From Bacteroidota bacterium (GTDB lineage Bacteria > Bacteroidota > Rhodothermia > Rhodothermales > JAHQVL01): a DNA stretch of 32,624 bases. Location of the stretch: the NCBI GenBank assembly GCA_039111535.1, contig JBCCIM010000056.1, forward strand, positions 1 through 32,624. The letters are read 5' to 3'. A model generated the notes under the pieces. That model made no database searches, was not told the DNA's origin, and saw only the letters and a program-made list of their open reading frames with translations. This document shows, piece by piece, positions 5,757 through 32,624 of the stretch (its first letter is position 1; each line of letters starts with the position of its first letter). Made by a program: the position numbers and the translations under genes.

Positions 5757-5960
5757 ATGAAAGCAAAAGAAATTCGCGAACTGAGCGTTACTGAGATTCA
5801 GCAGCGCATCAAGGATGAGCAGGAAAGCTTACAGCATCTGAATTTCCAGCATGCAATTGCTGACATTCAGAACCCAATGCAACTGCGGCACTCGCGTCGC
5901 TTGCTTGCACGGCTCCAGACCATCCTGAAACAGAAACTGGCCGCCGAAGCCGGCCAGTAA
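5757..5960 (+). CDS. rpmC: 50S ribosomal protein L29
   Basis: L29 (67 aa) is a small two-helix protein at the tunnel exit next to L23. ATG at 5757 gives MKAKEIRELSVTEI, the standard family opening; longer readings of this frame run into rplP. The second helix (HSRRLLARLQTILKQKL) carries the typical basic pattern. It lies 13 bases after rplP and 62 bases before rpsQ, in the usual order. Confidence 0.96.
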   Translation: MKAKEIRELSVTEIQQRIKDEQESLQHLNFQHAIADIQNPMQLRHSRRLLARLQTILKQKLAAEAGQ

Positions 5961-22913: not shown

Positions 22914-23504
22914 ATGCTTAACAGGCTGACCCCTGAAATGTTGCTGCAAGGCTATCAGATCGGAGTATTTCCGATGGCTGAAGACCGTGATAGCGAAGTT
23001 GTTCAATGGTTTGCACCTGACCCACGTGCAATTTTGCCGCTTGATGGATTTCACGTGCCCAAGACGTTAGCAAAACTTGTCCGTCAAAACAAGTTTGAGG
23101 TGGTTTCCGATCGTAATTTTGAAGGTGTGATGCGGGCTTGTGCAGCCCGTGAGACAACCTGGATTTCCGATGACATTATCCGTTCATATGTTGCCCTGTA
23201 TGAAAACGGATATGCACATAGTGTAGAATGTTGGCTGGATGGCCGGCTGGTAGGGGGGCTCTATGGCGTTGCCATTGGCGGGGCCTTTTTTGGTGAATCG
23301 ATGTTTCATCACGAGCGGGATGCCTCCAAAGTAGCCCTGGTGCATCTTGTACGGTGCCTGAACGCTTGCAACTATACGTTGCTCGATACGCAGTTTACAA
23401 CCCCCCATCTGGAAAAATTTGGCGTTATTGAAATTCCGCGGATCGAATATGAAGAGAAACTTGACCGCGCATTGGAACAAGAAGTGAAACCGTGGGCTTT
23501 GTGA
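22914..23504 (+). CDS. aat: Leucyl/phenylalanyl-tRNA–protein transferase
   Basis: The enzyme (196 aa) attaches Leu or Phe from aminoacyl-tRNA to N-terminal Lys or Arg, marking proteins for ClpS/ClpAP in the N-degron pathway. Family motifs are clear: GYQIGVFPMAE, FAPDPRAILPL, ETTWISDDII, YENGYAHSVECW, GGAFFGESMFH and LLDTQFTTPHLEKFG. The Glu in ESMF and the Gln in DTQF match the expected catalytic-site positions. ATG at 22914 gives MLNRLTPEMLLQGY. It is divergent from the biotin carrier gene and is followed 29 bases later by the DUF1460 gene. Confidence 0.96.
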   Translation: MLNRLTPEMLLQGYQIGVFPMAEDRDSEVVQWFAPDPRAILPLDGFHVPKTLAKLVRQNKFEVVSDRNFEGVMRACAARETTWISDDIIRSYVALYENGYAHSVECWLDGRLVGGLYGVAIGGAFFGESMFHHERDASKVALVHLVRCLNACNYTLLDTQFTTPHLEKFGVIEIPRIEYEEKLDRALEQEVKPWAL

Positions 23505-23533
23505 CAGGAGCCCAACGAAGCAAAAACCGTTGC

Positions 23534-24475
23534 ATGATCAACAGCATGATGAATAATTCCCCAAACTGCGACAAGCGTTTTCCTACGTTCGTACCTGCAG
23601 CCTTTTTTGTTGTCTCGCTCTTCAGTATGGCAGCCTGTCAGCCGTCAGAATCGCAGCCGGTGCAGCAAGCTACCGCATCGGCTGAGGCGTTACCGGGCGA
23701 CACGACCGCCGTGGCGCAGTTTGACGCACTCATGGCGGAAGCCAGGGCAAAGGCATGGCATACCAGGGATCTGGGGGGCATCATGATGCAAGTTGGGGTG
23801 TGGTTTGAAGGCCAGCCGTATGTTGCCGGCTCGCTCGATGAATCGGCCTACGAGCAACTGGTTATTAAGCTCGATGGGTTTGATTGTGTGACCTTTGTCG
23901 AATCTGTGCTTGCCCTCTCTCGAACCATCAAATCTCAAGCTTACAACTATGCCGGTTTTGTTGACCACATGCAGGCCCAGCGCTACCGGGATGGCAAGCT
24001 GGATGGCTATTGCAGCCGCCTCCACTATTTCTCTGAATGGATTTTGGACAATGAACGGCGCGGTAGGGTACAGAATATAACAGCTGAAATTGGTGGTGTG
24101 CTCCTTGATAAAGAGCTTGATTTTATGAGCGGGCACCGCGATAGCTATGCGCCGCTCAAAGACGACAGCCTGTATGCAGGCATTGTTGCAATGGAAGCAA
24201 ACTTGAAAGACCTTCAGATGTATCACATCCCGCAAGCAGCTATTGCATCCGCATATCCATCGCTGCTGGGTGGTGATATAGTTGCGCTTGCTACTGATAT
24301 CGGTGGACTCGATGTCACCCACACAGGGTTGGTTTTTAAACATGAGAACGGGCAAGTCGGCCTGCTTCATGCCTCTACAACGCGCGGTGTAGTGGTTTCG
24401 CCAGATCTTCAAGCTTATGTGGAGAACAATAGGCGCCAGATTGGCATTGTGGTAGCTCGACCCCAGGACCTTTAG
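23534..24475 (+). CDS. DUF1460 lipoprotein (NlpC/P60-like amidase fold)
   Basis: A predicted lipoprotein of 313 aa from ATG 23534. The signal peptide ends in SMAAC, so Cys35 would be lipidated; a start at 23549 is also possible. The mature protein matches the DUF1460 family, linked to cell-wall amidase activity with an NlpC/P60-like fold. The likely nucleophile Cys is in FDCVTFVES and the His in VTHTGLVF, followed by LLHAST. Conserved CSRLHYFSEWI lies between. It probably cleaves peptidoglycan fragments or stem peptides in the periplasm; the substrate is inferred from family knowledge only. Confidence 0.9.
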   Translation: MINSMMNNSPNCDKRFPTFVPAAFFVVSLFSMAACQPSESQPVQQATASAEALPGDTTAVAQFDALMAEARAKAWHTRDLGGIMMQVGVWFEGQPYVAGSLDESAYEQLVIKLDGFDCVTFVESVLALSRTIKSQAYNYAGFVDHMQAQRYRDGKLDGYCSRLHYFSEWILDNERRGRVQNITAEIGGVLLDKELDFMSGHRDSYAPLKDDSLYAGIVAMEANLKDLQMYHIPQAAIASAYPSLLGGDIVALATDIGGLDVTHTGLVFKHENGQVGLLHASTTRGVVVSPDLQAYVENNRRQIGIVVARPQDL

Positions 24476-26337: not shown

Positions 26338-26778
26338 CTAGCGTCCGTTTTTAACGTGGCTGTTGAGATACTTGGTCAGGCGGACTTCATTCACTTTGCC
26401 CTGGCTTGAGTATTCTACATGGTCCATGAGCCGGCGCATGATATGCACCCCAAATCCGCCAGCTTGCCGGCGTTTGGCTAACTCAAAAATATCTGGTTCG
26501 TTGTATTCTTTAGGGCGGAATGCTACGCCTTTATCTCGAATACAGACGGTAAAGCGGTCGGAATCGACGATGACCTTTATGTTGAGCTCGTGAGAGTCTT
26601 CACCGCTGTACGCGTGTTTGATCACGTTGGTACAAGCCTCATCAACGGCCACCTTGAATTGCTCGACGGACTGTGTATTGAAGCCCGCCTCGACAGTGTG
26701 CGTTTCAATAAAACGACGCACATCCTCAAGGTAACGTGTCGAACTCGGTATGGTCAGTTTGTACGTTGAACTAGCCAC
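26338..26778 (-). CDS. RsbW/SpoIIAB-like anti-sigma serine kinase (HATPase_c_2)
   Basis: A protein of 146 aa of the GHKL ATPase superfamily. The N box reads EACTNVIKHAY, the G1 box IRDKGVAF and the G2 box GGFGVHIMRRLMD, typical of partner-switching kinases. Such proteins bind a target, usually a sigma factor, and phosphorylate a STAS antagonist. The start appears to be GTG at 26776–26778. It is the last gene of a three-gene minus-strand cassette, 56 bases after the STAS gene. No sigma-factor gene is adjacent, so its target is unknown. Confidence 0.92.
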   Translation of the reverse strand: MASSTYKLTIPSSTRYLEDVRRFIETHTVEAGFNTQSVEQFKVAVDEACTNVIKHAYSGEDSHELNIKVIVDSDRFTVCIRDKGVAFRPKEYNEPDIFELAKRRQAGGFGVHIMRRLMDHVEYSSQGKVNEVRLTKYLNSHVKNGR

Positions 26779-26834: not shown

Positions 26835-27197
26835 CTATTCAGCGGTTTGCTGTGCGTCAAATTTTTCGATGGCTTCCTCTTCTGTATCAACGATGTCGAA
26901 GAGCATCGGAAAGCCAAGGAGGTCAAACACGTTGAACACCTTGGGTTGTAATGCGGCGATTTTGATGTCACCACCTTTGGAGCGCAAATCTTCAATGTAG
27001 GCCATAAATACACCCAGGCCGGCGCTCGATATATAGTTCAGGTTGGCACCGTTCACCACAATTTGGTAAATGCTGTCATCCTGGCACTTTTTTATAGCTG
27101 CTTCCAGCTCAGATGCGGTATGCGCATCCAGTTCTCCTTTGAGATCCAGTACGTTAACTGATTGCAACGATCTAAATCCGACTGAAAAATTACTCAT
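26835..27197 (-). CDS. STAS-domain anti-sigma factor antagonist (RsbV/SpoIIAA-like)
   Basis: A single STAS domain of 120 aa. The strand VNVLDLKGELDAHTASELE is typical, and the motif NYISSAGLGVF contains the serines at the usual phosphorylation position. Phosphorylation by the downstream kinase and dephosphorylation by the upstream phosphatase would switch its binding state. An ATG at 27195–27197 with AGGA upstream is preferred over the GTG two codons earlier. It lies 42 bases downstream of the phosphatase gene. The C-terminus is acidic (DTEEEAIEKFDAQQTAE). Confidence 0.93.
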   Translation of the reverse strand: MSNFSVGFRSLQSVNVLDLKGELDAHTASELEAAIKKCQDDSIYQIVVNGANLNYISSAGLGVFMAYIEDLRSKGGDIKIAALQPKVFNVFDLLGFPMLFDIVDTEEEAIEKFDAQQTAE

Positions 27198-27239
27198 ATG
27201 CACAGGTCCTCTAGTACGCTTGGGTAAAATTCAAAATGG

Positions 27240-29486
27240 TCAATCTATTTTCTGCTCAATTTGGGCAGCACTTTTTTTGGCTTTTACGCTGTTTGATTGC
27301 GCTGAAGCCAGGTTGATACCGTTCCATTTAAGCACCACAAGGGTCATGTCGTCGTCATACGACTCGATGCCCAGGAAGCCATCCAGGTCACCGAGGATGG
27401 CATCATGAATGCCCTCAGCGTCTTCGTGGCGGTGCTGTTTTAAAGATTCCAGGAGCCGGTCATATCCGTATTCTTCGCCTTCTACGTCACGGCTCTCAAC
27501 AACACCATCCGTGTAAAGCACAAATACGTCACCCGGGTTTAACGAAATACGCTCTTCTTGCAGCGTTTTCTCGAACAACTGCCCGCGGTCCAGGCCGAGT
27601 CCCAGGCCGGCCGGGCGCAGGTATCGCGCATTGCCGGCCAGGTCAATCATCGCAACCGGACAATGGCCCGCACGACCCATGGTGAACTCTTCCGTTTTAA
27701 GGTTGAGCATCCCGTAAATCGCAGAGATAAATACGTTTTTCTCCAGTGAGTGGGCAAGGGCTGCATTGGCATGCCGCAAAAACTCCGAAGGATTGGGGGC
27801 CAGCCGCGAAACAGACTGGAAAATGCCCTGCATTTCTGCCATATAAAAAGCAGCCGAAGCGCCTTTACCAGACACGTCACCGATAACGAGGCAGAGCCGT
27901 TCATCATCAAGGGCAAGAAAATCATAATAGTCCCCACCAACACGTTCAGCAGATACGTTGGAGGCCGCAATGGTCAGGCCATCAACCACTGGTACGTGCT
28001 GCGGCAGCAGTTTGCGCTGTACTTCGCGTGCAATGTCGAGTTCACTGGCAAGCCGTTCTTTTTCGAGTTGCTCTTCGAAAAGCCGGGCATTGTCCATGGC
28101 AATCGCTGCCTGGGCGGCATAAACCTGGATGGCGTCGATGTCATCTTGCTCAAAGCCATGGGTGACATCTTTGGTTACAAACAGGATGCCGAGGGTCTCT
28201 TCACGAGCAATGAGAGGCACAGCCAGCATACTGCCAAACCCGTCGCCGGGCCGTACGCTCAGGCGGTGGTCCGCTGCTGCTTCACCCAGGTATATATAGG
28301 CGCCCGATGCAGACACATCAGAAAAGAGAGAAACGGTATCAACCAACCGGCTGACGCGTCCGGGAGTCACCTTGTTGGTGGCAACAATTTGAGGCGTAAG
28401 AGAGCCTGATTGGGGGTCCGCTACGGCGAGCCAGGAGGCCTGGGCTGAGCCGGCTTCAACGGGAGACGCGGCAATTTGTGCATAAAGACGCTCCGGGTCA
28501 GAGGCCTGGTTAATCAGCTCTGTAAGGGAGTGCATCACTGCCCGTTCGTGCTCTTTGCGCTGGAAGTCGCCCGTTGTTGGGAGATGAAAGAGCAGCAAGA
28601 GGAGGGACGCTGTGCAATACAATACACCAAAACCAATGCCCAGCATTACAAAGATGTTGAGTCCGTAATTGTAGAACTGAATGTATACAAACAAGTCCTG
28701 CAAGAACGGAGAAGGATTTGGCAGCGGGCCGGCGTCTACACTGGTCAGCAAAAATATGAGTAGCAAGGTCGAGAGACTGATACTGATCAGCTTCTCTTTG
28801 AAATTCAGATAGACAATCCACGAAGCGCGCAGGGAGTTAACCACCATCAGCCCAAGGGGCGGGATGAGGGCAATGACCTGTAGGATATTGGGGTCCTCGC
28901 GCGGTGACTTCATGAAGAAAGTGAGCGAGGCCACAACCATGGCGGCCATCATCAAATACCAGTTACGCTGTGCTGTTTTTGTACGCTTGAAGAGCACCAG
29001 ATCTTTGATCCGGAAGATCATGTAAAGCGTGAAAATTAGCGCAAAAAGGCTTAAAAAGGTGGATTTGAAAATGGTTGTGACAACGAGTGGGGCGCCTGTG
29101 TTGTAATCAAATTCATCAACAGCATCAAAGACATCAATCAGCTCTGCATCGCGCCCAAAAGAAGTGAGCGGGATGGCCGCAGAGATAAAGAGCAGGCCCA
29201 GCAGCAGCATTGTCCAGAATACACGCGCCGGCGATGCTGAGCGCGCCTTGTAGCTTTTATGCAAGAGCAGCCACAATGCACCAAATCCAAGAAATACAAC
29301 CAGGTTATACAGGAAGAAATAGGACCCGCTCACCTGCGTTTCCGAATTCATCGAGATGACCTGAAAGAAGAAACCATACCCGAATGAGATCACCACAAGG
29401 GCGAGCAGCACAGCATACCCCAATCTCGAGCCTGGAGAGAAAGCTCGAAATCGCTCAGATATTTGTTCGGGTGATAATACAGACAT
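27240..29486 (-). CDS. Membrane GAF–PP2C (SpoIIE/RsbU-type) phosphatase
   Basis: A 748-aa sensor phosphatase. Residues of about 20–302 contain roughly eight hydrophobic segments. Residues of about 317–468 form a GAF domain (GFGSMLAVPLIAREETLGILFV). A short coiled linker (ARLFEEQLEKERLASELDIAREVQRKLLP) leads to the PP2C/SpoIIE domain at about 500–720. Metal-binding acids are visible in VGGDYYDF (Asp519), IGDVSGKG (Asp537), YTDGV (Asp660) and DDDMT (711–713). It would dephosphorylate the STAS protein encoded next in response to a membrane or GAF-sensed signal. It is the first gene of the operon, with ATG at 29484–29486. Confidence 0.95.
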   Translation of the reverse strand: MSVLSPEQISERFRAFSPGSRLGYAVLLALVVISFGYGFFFQVISMNSETQVSGSYFFLYNLVVFLGFGALWLLLHKSYKARSASPARVFWTMLLLGLLFISAAIPLTSFGRDAELIDVFDAVDEFDYNTGAPLVVTTIFKSTFLSLFALIFTLYMIFRIKDLVLFKRTKTAQRNWYLMMAAMVVASLTFFMKSPREDPNILQVIALIPPLGLMVVNSLRASWIVYLNFKEKLISISLSTLLLIFLLTSVDAGPLPNPSPFLQDLFVYIQFYNYGLNIFVMLGIGFGVLYCTASLLLLLFHLPTTGDFQRKEHERAVMHSLTELINQASDPERLYAQIAASPVEAGSAQASWLAVADPQSGSLTPQIVATNKVTPGRVSRLVDTVSLFSDVSASGAYIYLGEAAADHRLSVRPGDGFGSMLAVPLIAREETLGILFVTKDVTHGFEQDDIDAIQVYAAQAAIAMDNARLFEEQLEKERLASELDIAREVQRKLLPQHVPVVDGLTIAASNVSAERVGGDYYDFLALDDERLCLVIGDVSGKGASAAFYMAEMQGIFQSVSRLAPNPSEFLRHANAALAHSLEKNVFISAIYGMLNLKTEEFTMGRAGHCPVAMIDLAGNARYLRPAGLGLGLDRGQLFEKTLQEERISLNPGDVFVLYTDGVVESRDVEGEEYGYDRLLESLKQHRHEDAEGIHDAILGDLDGFLGIESYDDDMTLVVLKWNGINLASAQSNSVKAKKSAAQIEQKID

Positions 29487-29583
29487 GCGCTGCGGTCAGG
29501 CTGCTGTGTAGCTGCGAACGAAACAACAGGGCAATGCTGACACGCTGTTTCGGGGTTATAAGACCATCAGTAGTACTGTGGCC

Positions 29584-29629
29584 GTAACAATTTGTTACAC
29601 TTCCGGCCCAGATGTACCTGACCGGAAGT
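29584..29629. promoter_or_regulatory. Adjacent palindrome and hairpin in the divergent region
   Basis: GTAACAA-T-TTGTTAC (29584–29598) is a perfect seven-base inverted repeat with a one-base centre, the shape of a dimeric regulator's operator. It is followed directly by ACTTCCGG (29599–29606) and CCGGAAGT (29622–29629) with a 15-base loop. No T-run follows. The location, about 100 bases upstream of the phosphatase start, suits control of the phosphatase operon. The regulator is unknown. Confidence 0.4.
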
Positions 29630-29842
29630 TACGCATTACCCAAACCTTCTGCATGGTTTTTGCCTGTAGCGTGCTGAAAAAATAGCAGCACCTCGCGGGC
29701 TGGCCCCAAACCGCTGATCGAGCTATCTAAAAGACTGTTTTGGCGTACCTTGGCGCCGGATTTGCCAAGATTTTATCCGTTCGCATTTTAACTCATTTAT
29801 AAGGTAACTTCGGTGGAATTCTCTCGTAGAATCGCCATGGTC

Positions 29843-29871
29843 CACCAAACATCTCGTTGAGAGGTGTTTTT
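29843..29871 (+). terminator. Terminator-like hairpin in the leader of the repeat-protein gene
   Basis: CACC and TCTC (29843–29846 and 29852–29855) pair with GAGA and GGTG (29859–29866) around a GTT loop, with a five-base bulge, and TTTTT follows at 29867–29871. An alternative pairing uses AAACA with TGTTT. It is 52 bases upstream of the repeat-protein start, so it could be an attenuator or the end of a short leader RNA. The bulge makes it weaker than a standard terminator. Confidence 0.3.
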
Positions 29872-29923
29872 GTGATGACAGAAAGATGCTGAAAATTGAT
29901 ATTAGACAGGAATTGGGCGCCTT

Positions 29924-31903
29924 ATGAGACAAAATCCTTTTGTTCGCTGGCAACTCTGGGTATTGGGAGGGATAACGCTGCTTCTAATGTTCCGCGTACT
30001 TTCCGGTCCACCTCCGCGTAGCGGACTGGTGGTTATGGAGCGTATGCATGCCGAATCGCTTGTACAGAAGGCTTTTGAAGTTGAGCGCGCAATCGAAGTG
30101 TCTGTAGAAGGGCAGGGGTCATTCCAGTTTGCTGAGACGGGTGATAAAGACCTCGCTGCCTATGCCTGGATCATTGATGCCGAAACCCGCGAGCCCGTGT
30201 GGCAAATGGATCAAAACAACACCGTGCGAAGCAAAGGGTCTCTTGCAACCGTATCTGATGAATTGCGGCTGAAAGCCGGCACCTATCACCTCATTTTTGC
30301 TTCTTATGGCAATGTGCTCGACGGCCGGCTCAACCGCGACCAGCGCGAAGAATCTGATTGGGAAGACGATGAACGCGACTGGTATGTAGTGCTCAACCTC
30401 GTTGATGGAAAAGAAACAGATGTTCACCACAAACATGTGGATGCCCAGGATGCGCCGGTCTTTAACGGAGAACGTCTCGTGTGGCATTCAGGCCCGGTGA
30501 AAAACAAAGCCAAACGCTCTTACCTCTTTGACGTTACTGCCCCAACAACTTTCACTGTACGTGCAACAGGCGAATTCTCCGAGGATGTAAACGATTATGG
30601 CTACATCGTAAACGAACTTTCCGGAGAGCGTGTTTGGGAAATGAAGCACGACAATACAATGCCCGCCGGTGGTGTTGCTGAGAATCGGATGGTATCAGCC
30701 AAGCTTGATCTCAATCCCGGCGTTTATCGGATTGCGTACAACTCGGATGCTACCCATGCATACGATGGATGGAAAGGCAACCCACCTTACAACCCGGCTG
30801 GATGGGGCATCAGCCTGACAACCGACGAGAATAGCCAGCCTGTTTTGGCATTTGACCCGTGGACAACCCGGCAGCCGATGCTTTCGATGTTGTCGAATAC
30901 CGATGATGCGCTCAAGGTTGCAACATTCCGTGTACATCAAAAGCAGCGATTTGTGTTGTATGGGCTCGGCGAAATGAAGCGCAATGACCGGTATGATTAC
31001 GGTTGGATCGAGCGCATGCCGGCCAATACCGCTGGCGTTGATGCTTATTTTATTGAAGATGTAGAGGATCGTCATCCTGACAGCGATCGTTCTGTGTGGG
31101 AAATGACCTACGAAGCGTCACAACCTGCCGGTGGTGACGATAGCAACAGACGTTCCGTTAGCTTTGTAGACCTCGTGCCTGATCTATATACATTGTACTA
31201 TCGGACCGATGGTTCACACTCTTTCTCTGAATGGTCCAACGGCGAGCCGGCAGAAAGCGAGCGCTGGGGCGTTGCCATGTTCGACCTCGATGGCATGGGT
31301 GATATCGATATTGTAGAACAGCTCGACCTGGCCGCCCATTTTCATGAAGGGGAGCATGAGGAGCGCATCGAAGAAGAGCTTGCGATTCAACTGGAAGGGC
31401 TCGAAGAAATTGAGGCGCAGGTAGCAACTGCCGTTGAAGCCGCTGTTGAAGCTGCAGTTAGCGCCGAACTGGCCTATGTAGCTCCTGCTGAACCTGCTGC
31501 GCCGTTACCCCCATCTGCATTGTTTTTTGAACCCTCTGACGTATTGATTTCCATGAACAAACTTGGAAACGACGTTGATCGGTACGAAACACTTGAATTG
31601 CAGGGATGGGCGCGCTTGCGCGTTGTCGCTGTGGGCGAAATCACCCCGAGTGGCAACCAGTACGATTATGGGTACATCACCAAAGCTAGTACTGGTGAGA
31701 AGGTTTGGGAGATGAAACTCGATAATACCGAGGCCGCCGGCGGTGATGAAGCCAACCGTATTTTTGATGGTACCGTTGAGCTTTCTGCCGGCACCTATCG
31801 TGTGCACTTCAAAACCGACGCCACACACTCTTTTGGTGGATTCAATACACCGCAGCCGGCGTTACCTGATGCCTGGGGCATCACAATCGCCCGCGATAGA
31901 TAA
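29924..31903 (+). CDS. Membrane-anchored protein with four copies of an unrecognised domain
   Basis: A protein of 659 aa that I do not recognise. A single hydrophobic segment (about residues 10–26) after MRQNPFVRWQ suggests an inner-membrane signal anchor with the rest in the periplasm. Four repeats of about 100–120 residues follow, roughly 54–160, 199–299, 332–453 and 553–656. Shared landmarks are YGYI/YGWI/YAWI, VWEM or VWQM, DNT, AGG, NR, G-x-Y, SDATH or TDGSH, and WGI. Repeat 1 is the most divergent. An Ala/Glu-rich segment (about 473–520) and a Pro-rich stretch separate repeats 3 and 4. The strand pattern suggests beta-sandwiches. It is divergent from the phosphatase operon and lies 89 bases upstream of prmA. 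Confidence 0.85.
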   Translation: MRQNPFVRWQLWVLGGITLLLMFRVLSGPPPRSGLVVMERMHAESLVQKAFEVERAIEVSVEGQGSFQFAETGDKDLAAYAWIIDAETREPVWQMDQNNTVRSKGSLATVSDELRLKAGTYHLIFASYGNVLDGRLNRDQREESDWEDDERDWYVVLNLVDGKETDVHHKHVDAQDAPVFNGERLVWHSGPVKNKAKRSYLFDVTAPTTFTVRATGEFSEDVNDYGYIVNELSGERVWEMKHDNTMPAGGVAENRMVSAKLDLNPGVYRIAYNSDATHAYDGWKGNPPYNPAGWGISLTTDENSQPVLAFDPWTTRQPMLSMLSNTDDALKVATFRVHQKQRFVLYGLGEMKRNDRYDYGWIERMPANTAGVDAYFIEDVEDRHPDSDRSVWEMTYEASQPAGGDDSNRRSVSFVDLVPDLYTLYYRTDGSHSFSEWSNGEPAESERWGVAMFDLDGMGDIDIVEQLDLAAHFHEGEHEERIEEELAIQLEGLEEIEAQVATAVEAAVEAAVSAELAYVAPAEPAAPLPPSALFFEPSDVLISMNKLGNDVDRYETLELQGWARLRVVAVGEITPSGNQYDYGYITKASTGEKVWEMKLDNTEAAGGDEANRIFDGTVELSAGTYRVHFKTDATHSFGGFNTPQPALPDAWGITIARDR

Positions 31904-31992: not shown

Positions 31993-32624
31993 GTGACCAA
32001 CGAACCCTCCATCGAACTGACCCTCAACCTGTCTCCACACCTGCACGATCTCCTCGTCGCTGAACTGGATGCTGTTGGATTTAACGGATTTGTCCAGGAA
32101 GAAACCCGGTTTCAGGCCTACATCCCCCCAAAAAAATGGGTAGCTGATGCCCGAGAAGTTGTTCAGCACTGGCTGCAACTACACGCTCCGGGAACGACCT
32201 GGCAAGAACAAGAAATTGTGCCGCAGGACTGGAATAAAGCGTGGGAGGCTTCCATTCAGCCCATCCGTATTGCACCTTTCTATGTTCGCCCAAGCTGGGC
32301 GCCAGCGGTTGAAGGCTTTATAGATATTGTGGTTGACCCCAAAATGAGCTTCGGCACGGGCCACCATGAAACTACCCGCTTGCTGCTTAAAATGATGCCA
32401 GATCACATCACACCGGGCTGTGATGTGCTGGATGCGGGTACCGGGACAGCCATTCTTGCTATTGCCGCCACCAAGCTTGATGCCGGCAAAGTCTTCGCTT
32501 TCGATATCGATCCCTGGGTTAGCGAAAATGTAGCAGAAAATCTGGCGTTAAACGCGGCAACAACAAGTGTGTCGTTCTCCGTTGGAGGGATGGATGTGGT
32601 GCCGGATACAACCTATGATGTGAT
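31993..32624 (+). CDS. prmA: Ribosomal protein L11 methyltransferase (partial, 3' end outside window)
   Basis: The first 210 codons of PrmA, which trimethylates ribosomal protein L11. GTG at 31993 is the start, supported by AAAGG at 31980–31984. An N-terminal substrate-binding domain (ELTLNLSPHLHDLLVAELDAVGF) is followed by IVVDPKMSFGTGHHETTRL, the PrmA signature, and the SAM-binding motif VLDAGTGTAILAIAATKL with FAFDIDP. The reading frame is open to the window edge. The family is about 275–300 aa, so roughly a quarter to a third of the gene lies beyond the window. Confidence 0.95.
   Translation, partial: MTNEPSIELTLNLSPHLHDLLVAELDAVGFNGFVQEETRFQAYIPPKKWVADAREVVQHWLQLHAPGTTWQEQEIVPQDWNKAWEASIQPIRIAPFYVRPSWAPAVEGFIDIVVDPKMSFGTGHHETTRLLLKMMPDHITPGCDVLDAGTGTAILAIAATKLDAGKVFAFDIDPWVSENVAENLALNAATTSVSFSVGGMDVVPDTTYDV

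Follow-up and report, generated by a model that had tools for sequence, protein, structure and literature searches.

A predicted jelly-roll domain in four copies beside an RsbU-RsbV-RsbW switch in Rhodothermales, and its possible role in extracytoplasmic ligand binding

Among described systems, a close counterpart to the operon next to the gene reported here is the SigB-type switch of Bacillus subtilis, with its phosphatase, antagonist and kinase. The route by which extracytoplasmic signals reach phosphatases of the RsbU type is poorly known; PMC12143880 describes a linker-dimer mechanism for these enzymes. A folded domain that occurs next to RsbU-type phosphatases as well as within them offers a concrete and testable sensor. 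We analysed a 32,624-nucleotide stretch of DNA (the window) from a member of the Rhodothermales, in which the gene for a membrane-anchored protein of four repeats diverges from a partner-switch set: a SpoIIE/PPM phosphatase, a STAS antagonist and a HATPase_c_2 kinase. The features of this locus were as follows:

26338-26778 (-): RsbW-like anti-sigma kinase (HATPase_c_2)
26835-27203 (-): RsbV-like anti-sigma factor antagonist, STAS (TIGR00377 above cut-off, PF01740)
27240-29486 (-): RsbU-like phosphatase with many N-terminal membrane spans, GAF and SpoIIE (domain scan, hydropathy)
29487-29923 (no strand): intergenic region between the divergent rsbU and repeat genes (motif scan)
29924-31903 (+): four-repeat membrane-anchored protein, 659 aa, ATG start (ORF, orthologues, alignment)
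31993-32622 (+): prmA, truncated where the window stops; often lies downstream of the repeat gene in the order (domain matches)

All three components of the B. subtilis switch are likewise present, but RsbU here is a multi-span membrane protein with a GAF domain, and the genome has no SigB-type sigma factor above cut-off (the best TIGR02980 match scored 118 bits against a cut-off of 234). Eight to nine hydrophobic segments were assigned to the window RsbU by hydropathy; neither hydropathy nor the domain scan revealed a large periplasmic insert or an evident periplasmic sensor domain, and no Pfam model matched the membrane part. Promoter-like and terminator-like matches in the intergenic region were no more frequent than expected by chance. 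Two other genes in the window were noted in passing. An N-acetylmuramoyl-L-alanine amidase-like protein (PF07313) is encoded at 23492-24475 (+), between aat and pfkA, and is kept nearby in many relatives. Within the ribosomal protein cluster, between the rpsJ-like 196-504 and the rplC-like 1136-1768, lies a 170-residue ORF (501-1013, +) that starts like a lipoprotein (LVGC) and contains an acidic stretch.

Architecture and predicted fold of the repeat protein

The repeat gene is a real gene, with matches in 36 of the 40 genomes in a search of relatives (G000 counted in) and orthologues that align from residue 1. The ORF, repeat alignments, structural model and hydropathy agree with the original prediction of a 659-residue protein carrying four copies of one domain, each of about 120 residues, behind a single N-terminal membrane anchor. 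Its parts, all on the forward strand, are:

29936-30004 (+): N-terminal membrane anchor, residues 5-27 (helix in model, hydropathy)
30026-30403 (+): repeat 1, about residues 35-160, degenerate (repeat alignment; strands in model)
30470-30826 (+): repeat 2, residues 183-301; candidate site E217, D224, D275, H278 (repeat alignment)
30875-31288 (+): repeat 3, residues 318-455; candidate site E350, D358, D429, H432; lineage-specific insertion (repeat alignment)
31355-31468 (+): long predicted helix, residues 478-515, Ala/Glu-rich, between repeats 3 and 4 (model, alignment)
31538-31900 (+): repeat 4, residues 539-659, the most conserved repeat; candidate site E572, D581, D632, H635 (alignment, single-domain model)

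Residues 5-27 form the sole membrane helix predicted by the model, and hydropathy places the hydrophobic segment at 11-29; by eye, neither a cleavage site nor a lipobox was seen there. Repeats 2 and 4 had been judged the most alike, and local alignment against 500 shuffles gave that pair the highest z of all (32, with 43% identity over 92 aa), followed by repeats 3 and 4 (z = 24) and repeats 2 and 3 (z = 22). Repeat 1 was more distant from repeat 2 (z = 11) and repeat 4 (z = 10), and its similarity to repeat 3 was not detectable in the same pairwise comparison. The longer insertion noticed in repeat 3 measures about 20 residues and is absent from most orthologues; the helix at 478-515 is absent from the aligned orthologues. 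Repeat 1 has indeed lost landmarks, the Glu, Asp, Asp and His of the other repeats being gone. On a tree of 271 domain copies, all 50 labelled first repeats fell inside one clade of 62 tips that holds copies from both Bacteroidota and Acidobacteriota, which indicates that repeat 1 diverged early.

The family is unnamed in the databases searched. No curated family in Pfam or NCBIfam matched the 659-aa protein or the repeat profile; a search of PDB sequences returned an unrelated best match (E 0.03) for the protein and none for the profile. The original description of an unrecognised family therefore holds for these libraries. Weak, sub-cut-off Pfam matches to DUF4458, FG-GAP_3, CBM_20, DUF5013 and AMPK1_CBM differed among members and were rejected as identities. 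A tblastn search of plasmids for the repeat protein found nothing, and among the titles and abstract openings of the literature searched no paper was recognised as describing the domain.

The fold class, by contrast with the family, is already known. Modelled alone with AlphaFold2, repeat 4 was predicted with a mean pLDDT of 97.1 as an eight-stranded sandwich; the full-length model (mean pLDDT 83) retained the strands of repeat 1, and the repeated domain was seen in both. Foldseek returned no match to the single-domain model with E below 0.001; hemagglutinins and esterases appeared in many rows at similar E-values, which we took as common sandwich similarity. With VIA-align 2, the same model superposed on the Kremen CUB domain (Z 8.6) and C1s CUB1 (Z 8.2) at rmsd 2.4-2.5 over 91-92 residues, and on a PPC domain (Z 8.5) at rmsd 3.0 over 91 residues, although a Z near 8 can mean just a common arrangement and Z of about 8.5 lies little above background. 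CUB chains mostly gave rmsd values of 2.4-2.8, and PPC or collagen-binding domains 3.0-3.4; with the tandem (full-length) model, cubilin CUB repeats ranked second. The nearest solved folds are CUB, PPC and GOLD domains. As predicted structures go, the repeat is a CUB/PPC-like jelly-roll beta-sandwich, for which we claim membership of neither family: the family remained without a match, but the fold is not new.

Gene neighbourhood, fusions and possible function

The repeat profile detected the domain in 67 of 394 Bacteroidota genomes and in 29 of 297 from Acidobacteriota. An extracytoplasmic binding or sensing role appears most likely, because the domain recurs both inside and beside sensor outputs in the two phyla. 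We put at about even the chance that the repeat binds a ligand outside the cytoplasm and serves, in the window, as the periplasmic input of the adjacent RsbU-RsbV-RsbW switch. The four jelly-roll copies on their single anchor would face the periplasm, where repeats 2-4 may bind or release a ligand and so shift the multi-span phosphatase RsbU into another state; RsbU would then dephosphorylate RsbV, and the target of RsbW would be freed. Signal transduction could follow the linker-dimer mechanism of RsbU-type phosphatases. What we observed directly are the repeats, their modelled fold, the neighbouring genes and the fusions to sensor outputs in other genomes; within this scheme we infer the periplasmic side, the contact with RsbU, the ligand and its nature, the direction of the signal and the linker-dimer step.

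Gene order provides moderate support. The repeat gene was present in 36 genomes of the order; by hand tally, it and the RsbU orthologue are divergent neighbours in 28 of these, spanning 11 of 15 families. Loci extending to as much as 20 kb usually have rsbV and rsbW after rsbU, and prmA after the repeat gene; where prmA is not adjacent (L025, L026, L031, L032), rsbU-rsbV-rsbW can still adjoin the repeat gene. The pfkA, ubiE and prmA order is likewise conserved around the locus, so adjacency alone amounts to moderate evidence. Four of the remaining genomes have the two genes unlinked (G005, G009, G019, G029) and two have the repeat gene without an RsbU orthologue (G006, G038), all six speaking against the sensor reading; in the last two, contig breaks end the locus. 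All three genomes sampled from family f13 lack both genes. Some genomes of the order also carry a second, secreted-looking multi-repeat paralogue without rsbU nearby (L037:9141-10961, -; L038:9052-10803, -); the L037 copy lies near ORFs that by eye resemble MacB/FtsX-like permeases.

Together with the joint absence in f13 and the RsbU that has no large periplasmic insert, the contexts of the domain outside the order also suggest a sensor. An acidobacterial homologue (L002) has its start near 5905 (+) and diverges from a gene for a 7TMR-DISM and SpoIIE protein starting at 5850 (-). Single copies lie within Reg_prop proteins whose SpoIIE output was confirmed by Pfam (L086, L107, L114, L117), and further Reg_prop proteins that carry the domain have a histidine kinase output (L003, L106, L108, L113, L150). 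Of these, the Saprospiraceae protein L003 is a 1542-residue hybrid two-component protein with one copy in its Reg_prop region, and L150 has two copies. Additional proteins of similar length have a C-terminus that matches RsbU, by BLAST only. Several of the SpoIIE fusions adjoin more SpoIIE, STAS and HATPase genes. The original prediction had not taken in this broader setting, neither the RsbU switch next door nor the fusions.

Hydrolase fusions and secreted forms show that the use of the domain reaches beyond signalling, and for that reason the main rival reading is that of a general module for binding to the envelope. The repeat would then be an extracellular module for a cell-wall or envelope polymer, used in the manner of a CBM or PPC domain and recruited by sensors, hydrolases and stand-alone proteins alike; the window protein would be structural or adhesive, and its adjacency to rsbU a matter of gene-order inertia. 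We hold this possible, if less probable than a sensor. Three- and four-repeat proteins of other Bacteroidota and of Acidobacteriota have the look of secreted proteins, and most of them lack an adjacent phosphatase gene, which favours the module and counts against the sensor. In two phyla a single copy sits C-terminal or nearly so, after a PF00144 domain of the serine beta-lactamase family (L116:5966-7600, L151:4632-6914, L152:6504-8717, L153:6216-8420), and in L118 a PF00144 gene lies next to an ORF that encodes the domain. The fusions suit a general binding module no less than a sensor, and a ligand common to them and to the sensors would be informative. The conservation of gene order around the locus in general is likewise in keeping with inertia, and the lack of a SigB-type sigma factor above cut-off weighs against the sensor. 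A general module is less readily reconciled with the repeated insertion of the domain into sensors with SpoIIE or kinase output, or with the independent SpoIIE neighbourhood in L002. As a separate observation, one gene recurs downstream of the four-repeat gene in three loci outside the order (L075:8662-10080, L081:8411-9811, L088:8887-10323); it encodes an Omp85-like protein in the two loci scanned.

A candidate binding site

In repeat 4 numbering, the polar positions that are conserved across 200 unique domains are E34, D43, N73, R74, D94 and H97; Gly, Trp, Tyr and Leu are also among the conserved positions, and several of these look structural. E34, D43, D94 and H97 are all kept in 156 of the 182 domains in which position 94 is aligned and all lost in 6 (counts uncorrected for phylogeny), with losses largely in repeat 1 by inspection. 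The original prediction had read conserved residues of the repeats as a shared binding site. The co-conservation of the Glu, Asp, Asp and His makes such a site plausible, and it keeps the standing of a candidate.

The same four residues recall the calcium site of CUB domains; we treat the resemblance as a lead, not a result. In C1s CUB1, according to the published account (PMC4222235), Glu45, Asp98 and Ser100 touch the ligand lysine, Asp53 belongs to the calcium site, and Tyr52 is among the residues with described roles. Repeats 2-4 might similarly bind Ca2+ through E34, D43 and D94 and hold a ligand by one of its basic or polar groups, which would make the domain a bacterial relative of CUB or a convergent counterpart. 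This we consider rather unlikely; it is compatible with the sensor reading and would specify its binding step. The roles of the C1s residues, the co-occurrence of the four repeat residues, the top structural ranking and mostly lower rmsd of CUB chains, and the rank of cubilin with the tandem model all favour it, and three MAFFT strategies for a joint alignment placed D43 and D94 on Asp columns of CUB. In those alignments, however, E34 fell in a gap, and a profile-merge alignment did not place D43 or D94 with the CUB columns. The Z-scores near 8 may reflect just the common arrangement, none of 53 repeat sequences gave a CUB match in the Pfam scan, and hhalign against eight CUB sequences gave a probability of 1.3%, with no detectable homology. 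Because the profile comparison failed, we do not claim CUB membership. Should the CUB-like site prove genuine, bacterial envelopes would share a binding mode known chiefly from animals.

A broader proposal, which we regard as speculative and improbable, is that, across Bacteroidota and Acidobacteriota, a CUB-like calcium-dependent domain acts as an interchangeable extracytoplasmic input that feeds histidine kinases as well as PP2C partner switches; within the order it would form a split sensor, with four domains on their own anchor acting in trans with a sensorless phosphatase. That the repeats are inert spacers, their conserved residues serving folding only, is very unlikely: the structural look of several Gly, Trp, Tyr and Leu positions would suit it, but the conservation of Glu, Asp, Asn, Arg, Asp and His extends over different phyla and contexts, and the degenerate repeat 1 keeps its modelled strands without most of the conserved charged and polar residues.

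Comparison with known sensors and accessory domains

The preferred reading, of the repeat as an extracytoplasmic ligand-binding domain, can be set against three known systems beyond the SigB-type switch. In Reg_prop/Y_Y_Y periplasmic sensors (PF07494, PF07495) that signal through SpoIIE or a histidine kinase, the domain is found singly within the sensor region, whereas the window protein has neither a propeller nor an output domain of its own. The bacterial pre-peptidase C-terminal domain (PPC, PF04151) shares with the repeat a secreted accessory role and perhaps its fold, and the two have in common a Leu-x-x-Gly-x-Tyr strand motif, which we take to be characteristic of PPC; Pfam scans of the repeats gave no PF04151 match, and no PPC domain was found in the genome of the window. 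CUB domains (PF00431; C1s CUB1, Kremen, cubilin) have a jelly-roll beta-sandwich close in size to the one predicted for the repeat, and those of cubilin are arranged in tandem, as are the repeats of the window protein. The conserved disulphide cysteines of CUB are absent from the repeat, in which no Cys is more than 60% conserved among the 200 unique domains. Acidic residues of the repeat lie at seemingly equivalent strand ends to those of CUB, but the repeat is bacterial and has landmarks of its own: Trp, AGG, NR and WG.
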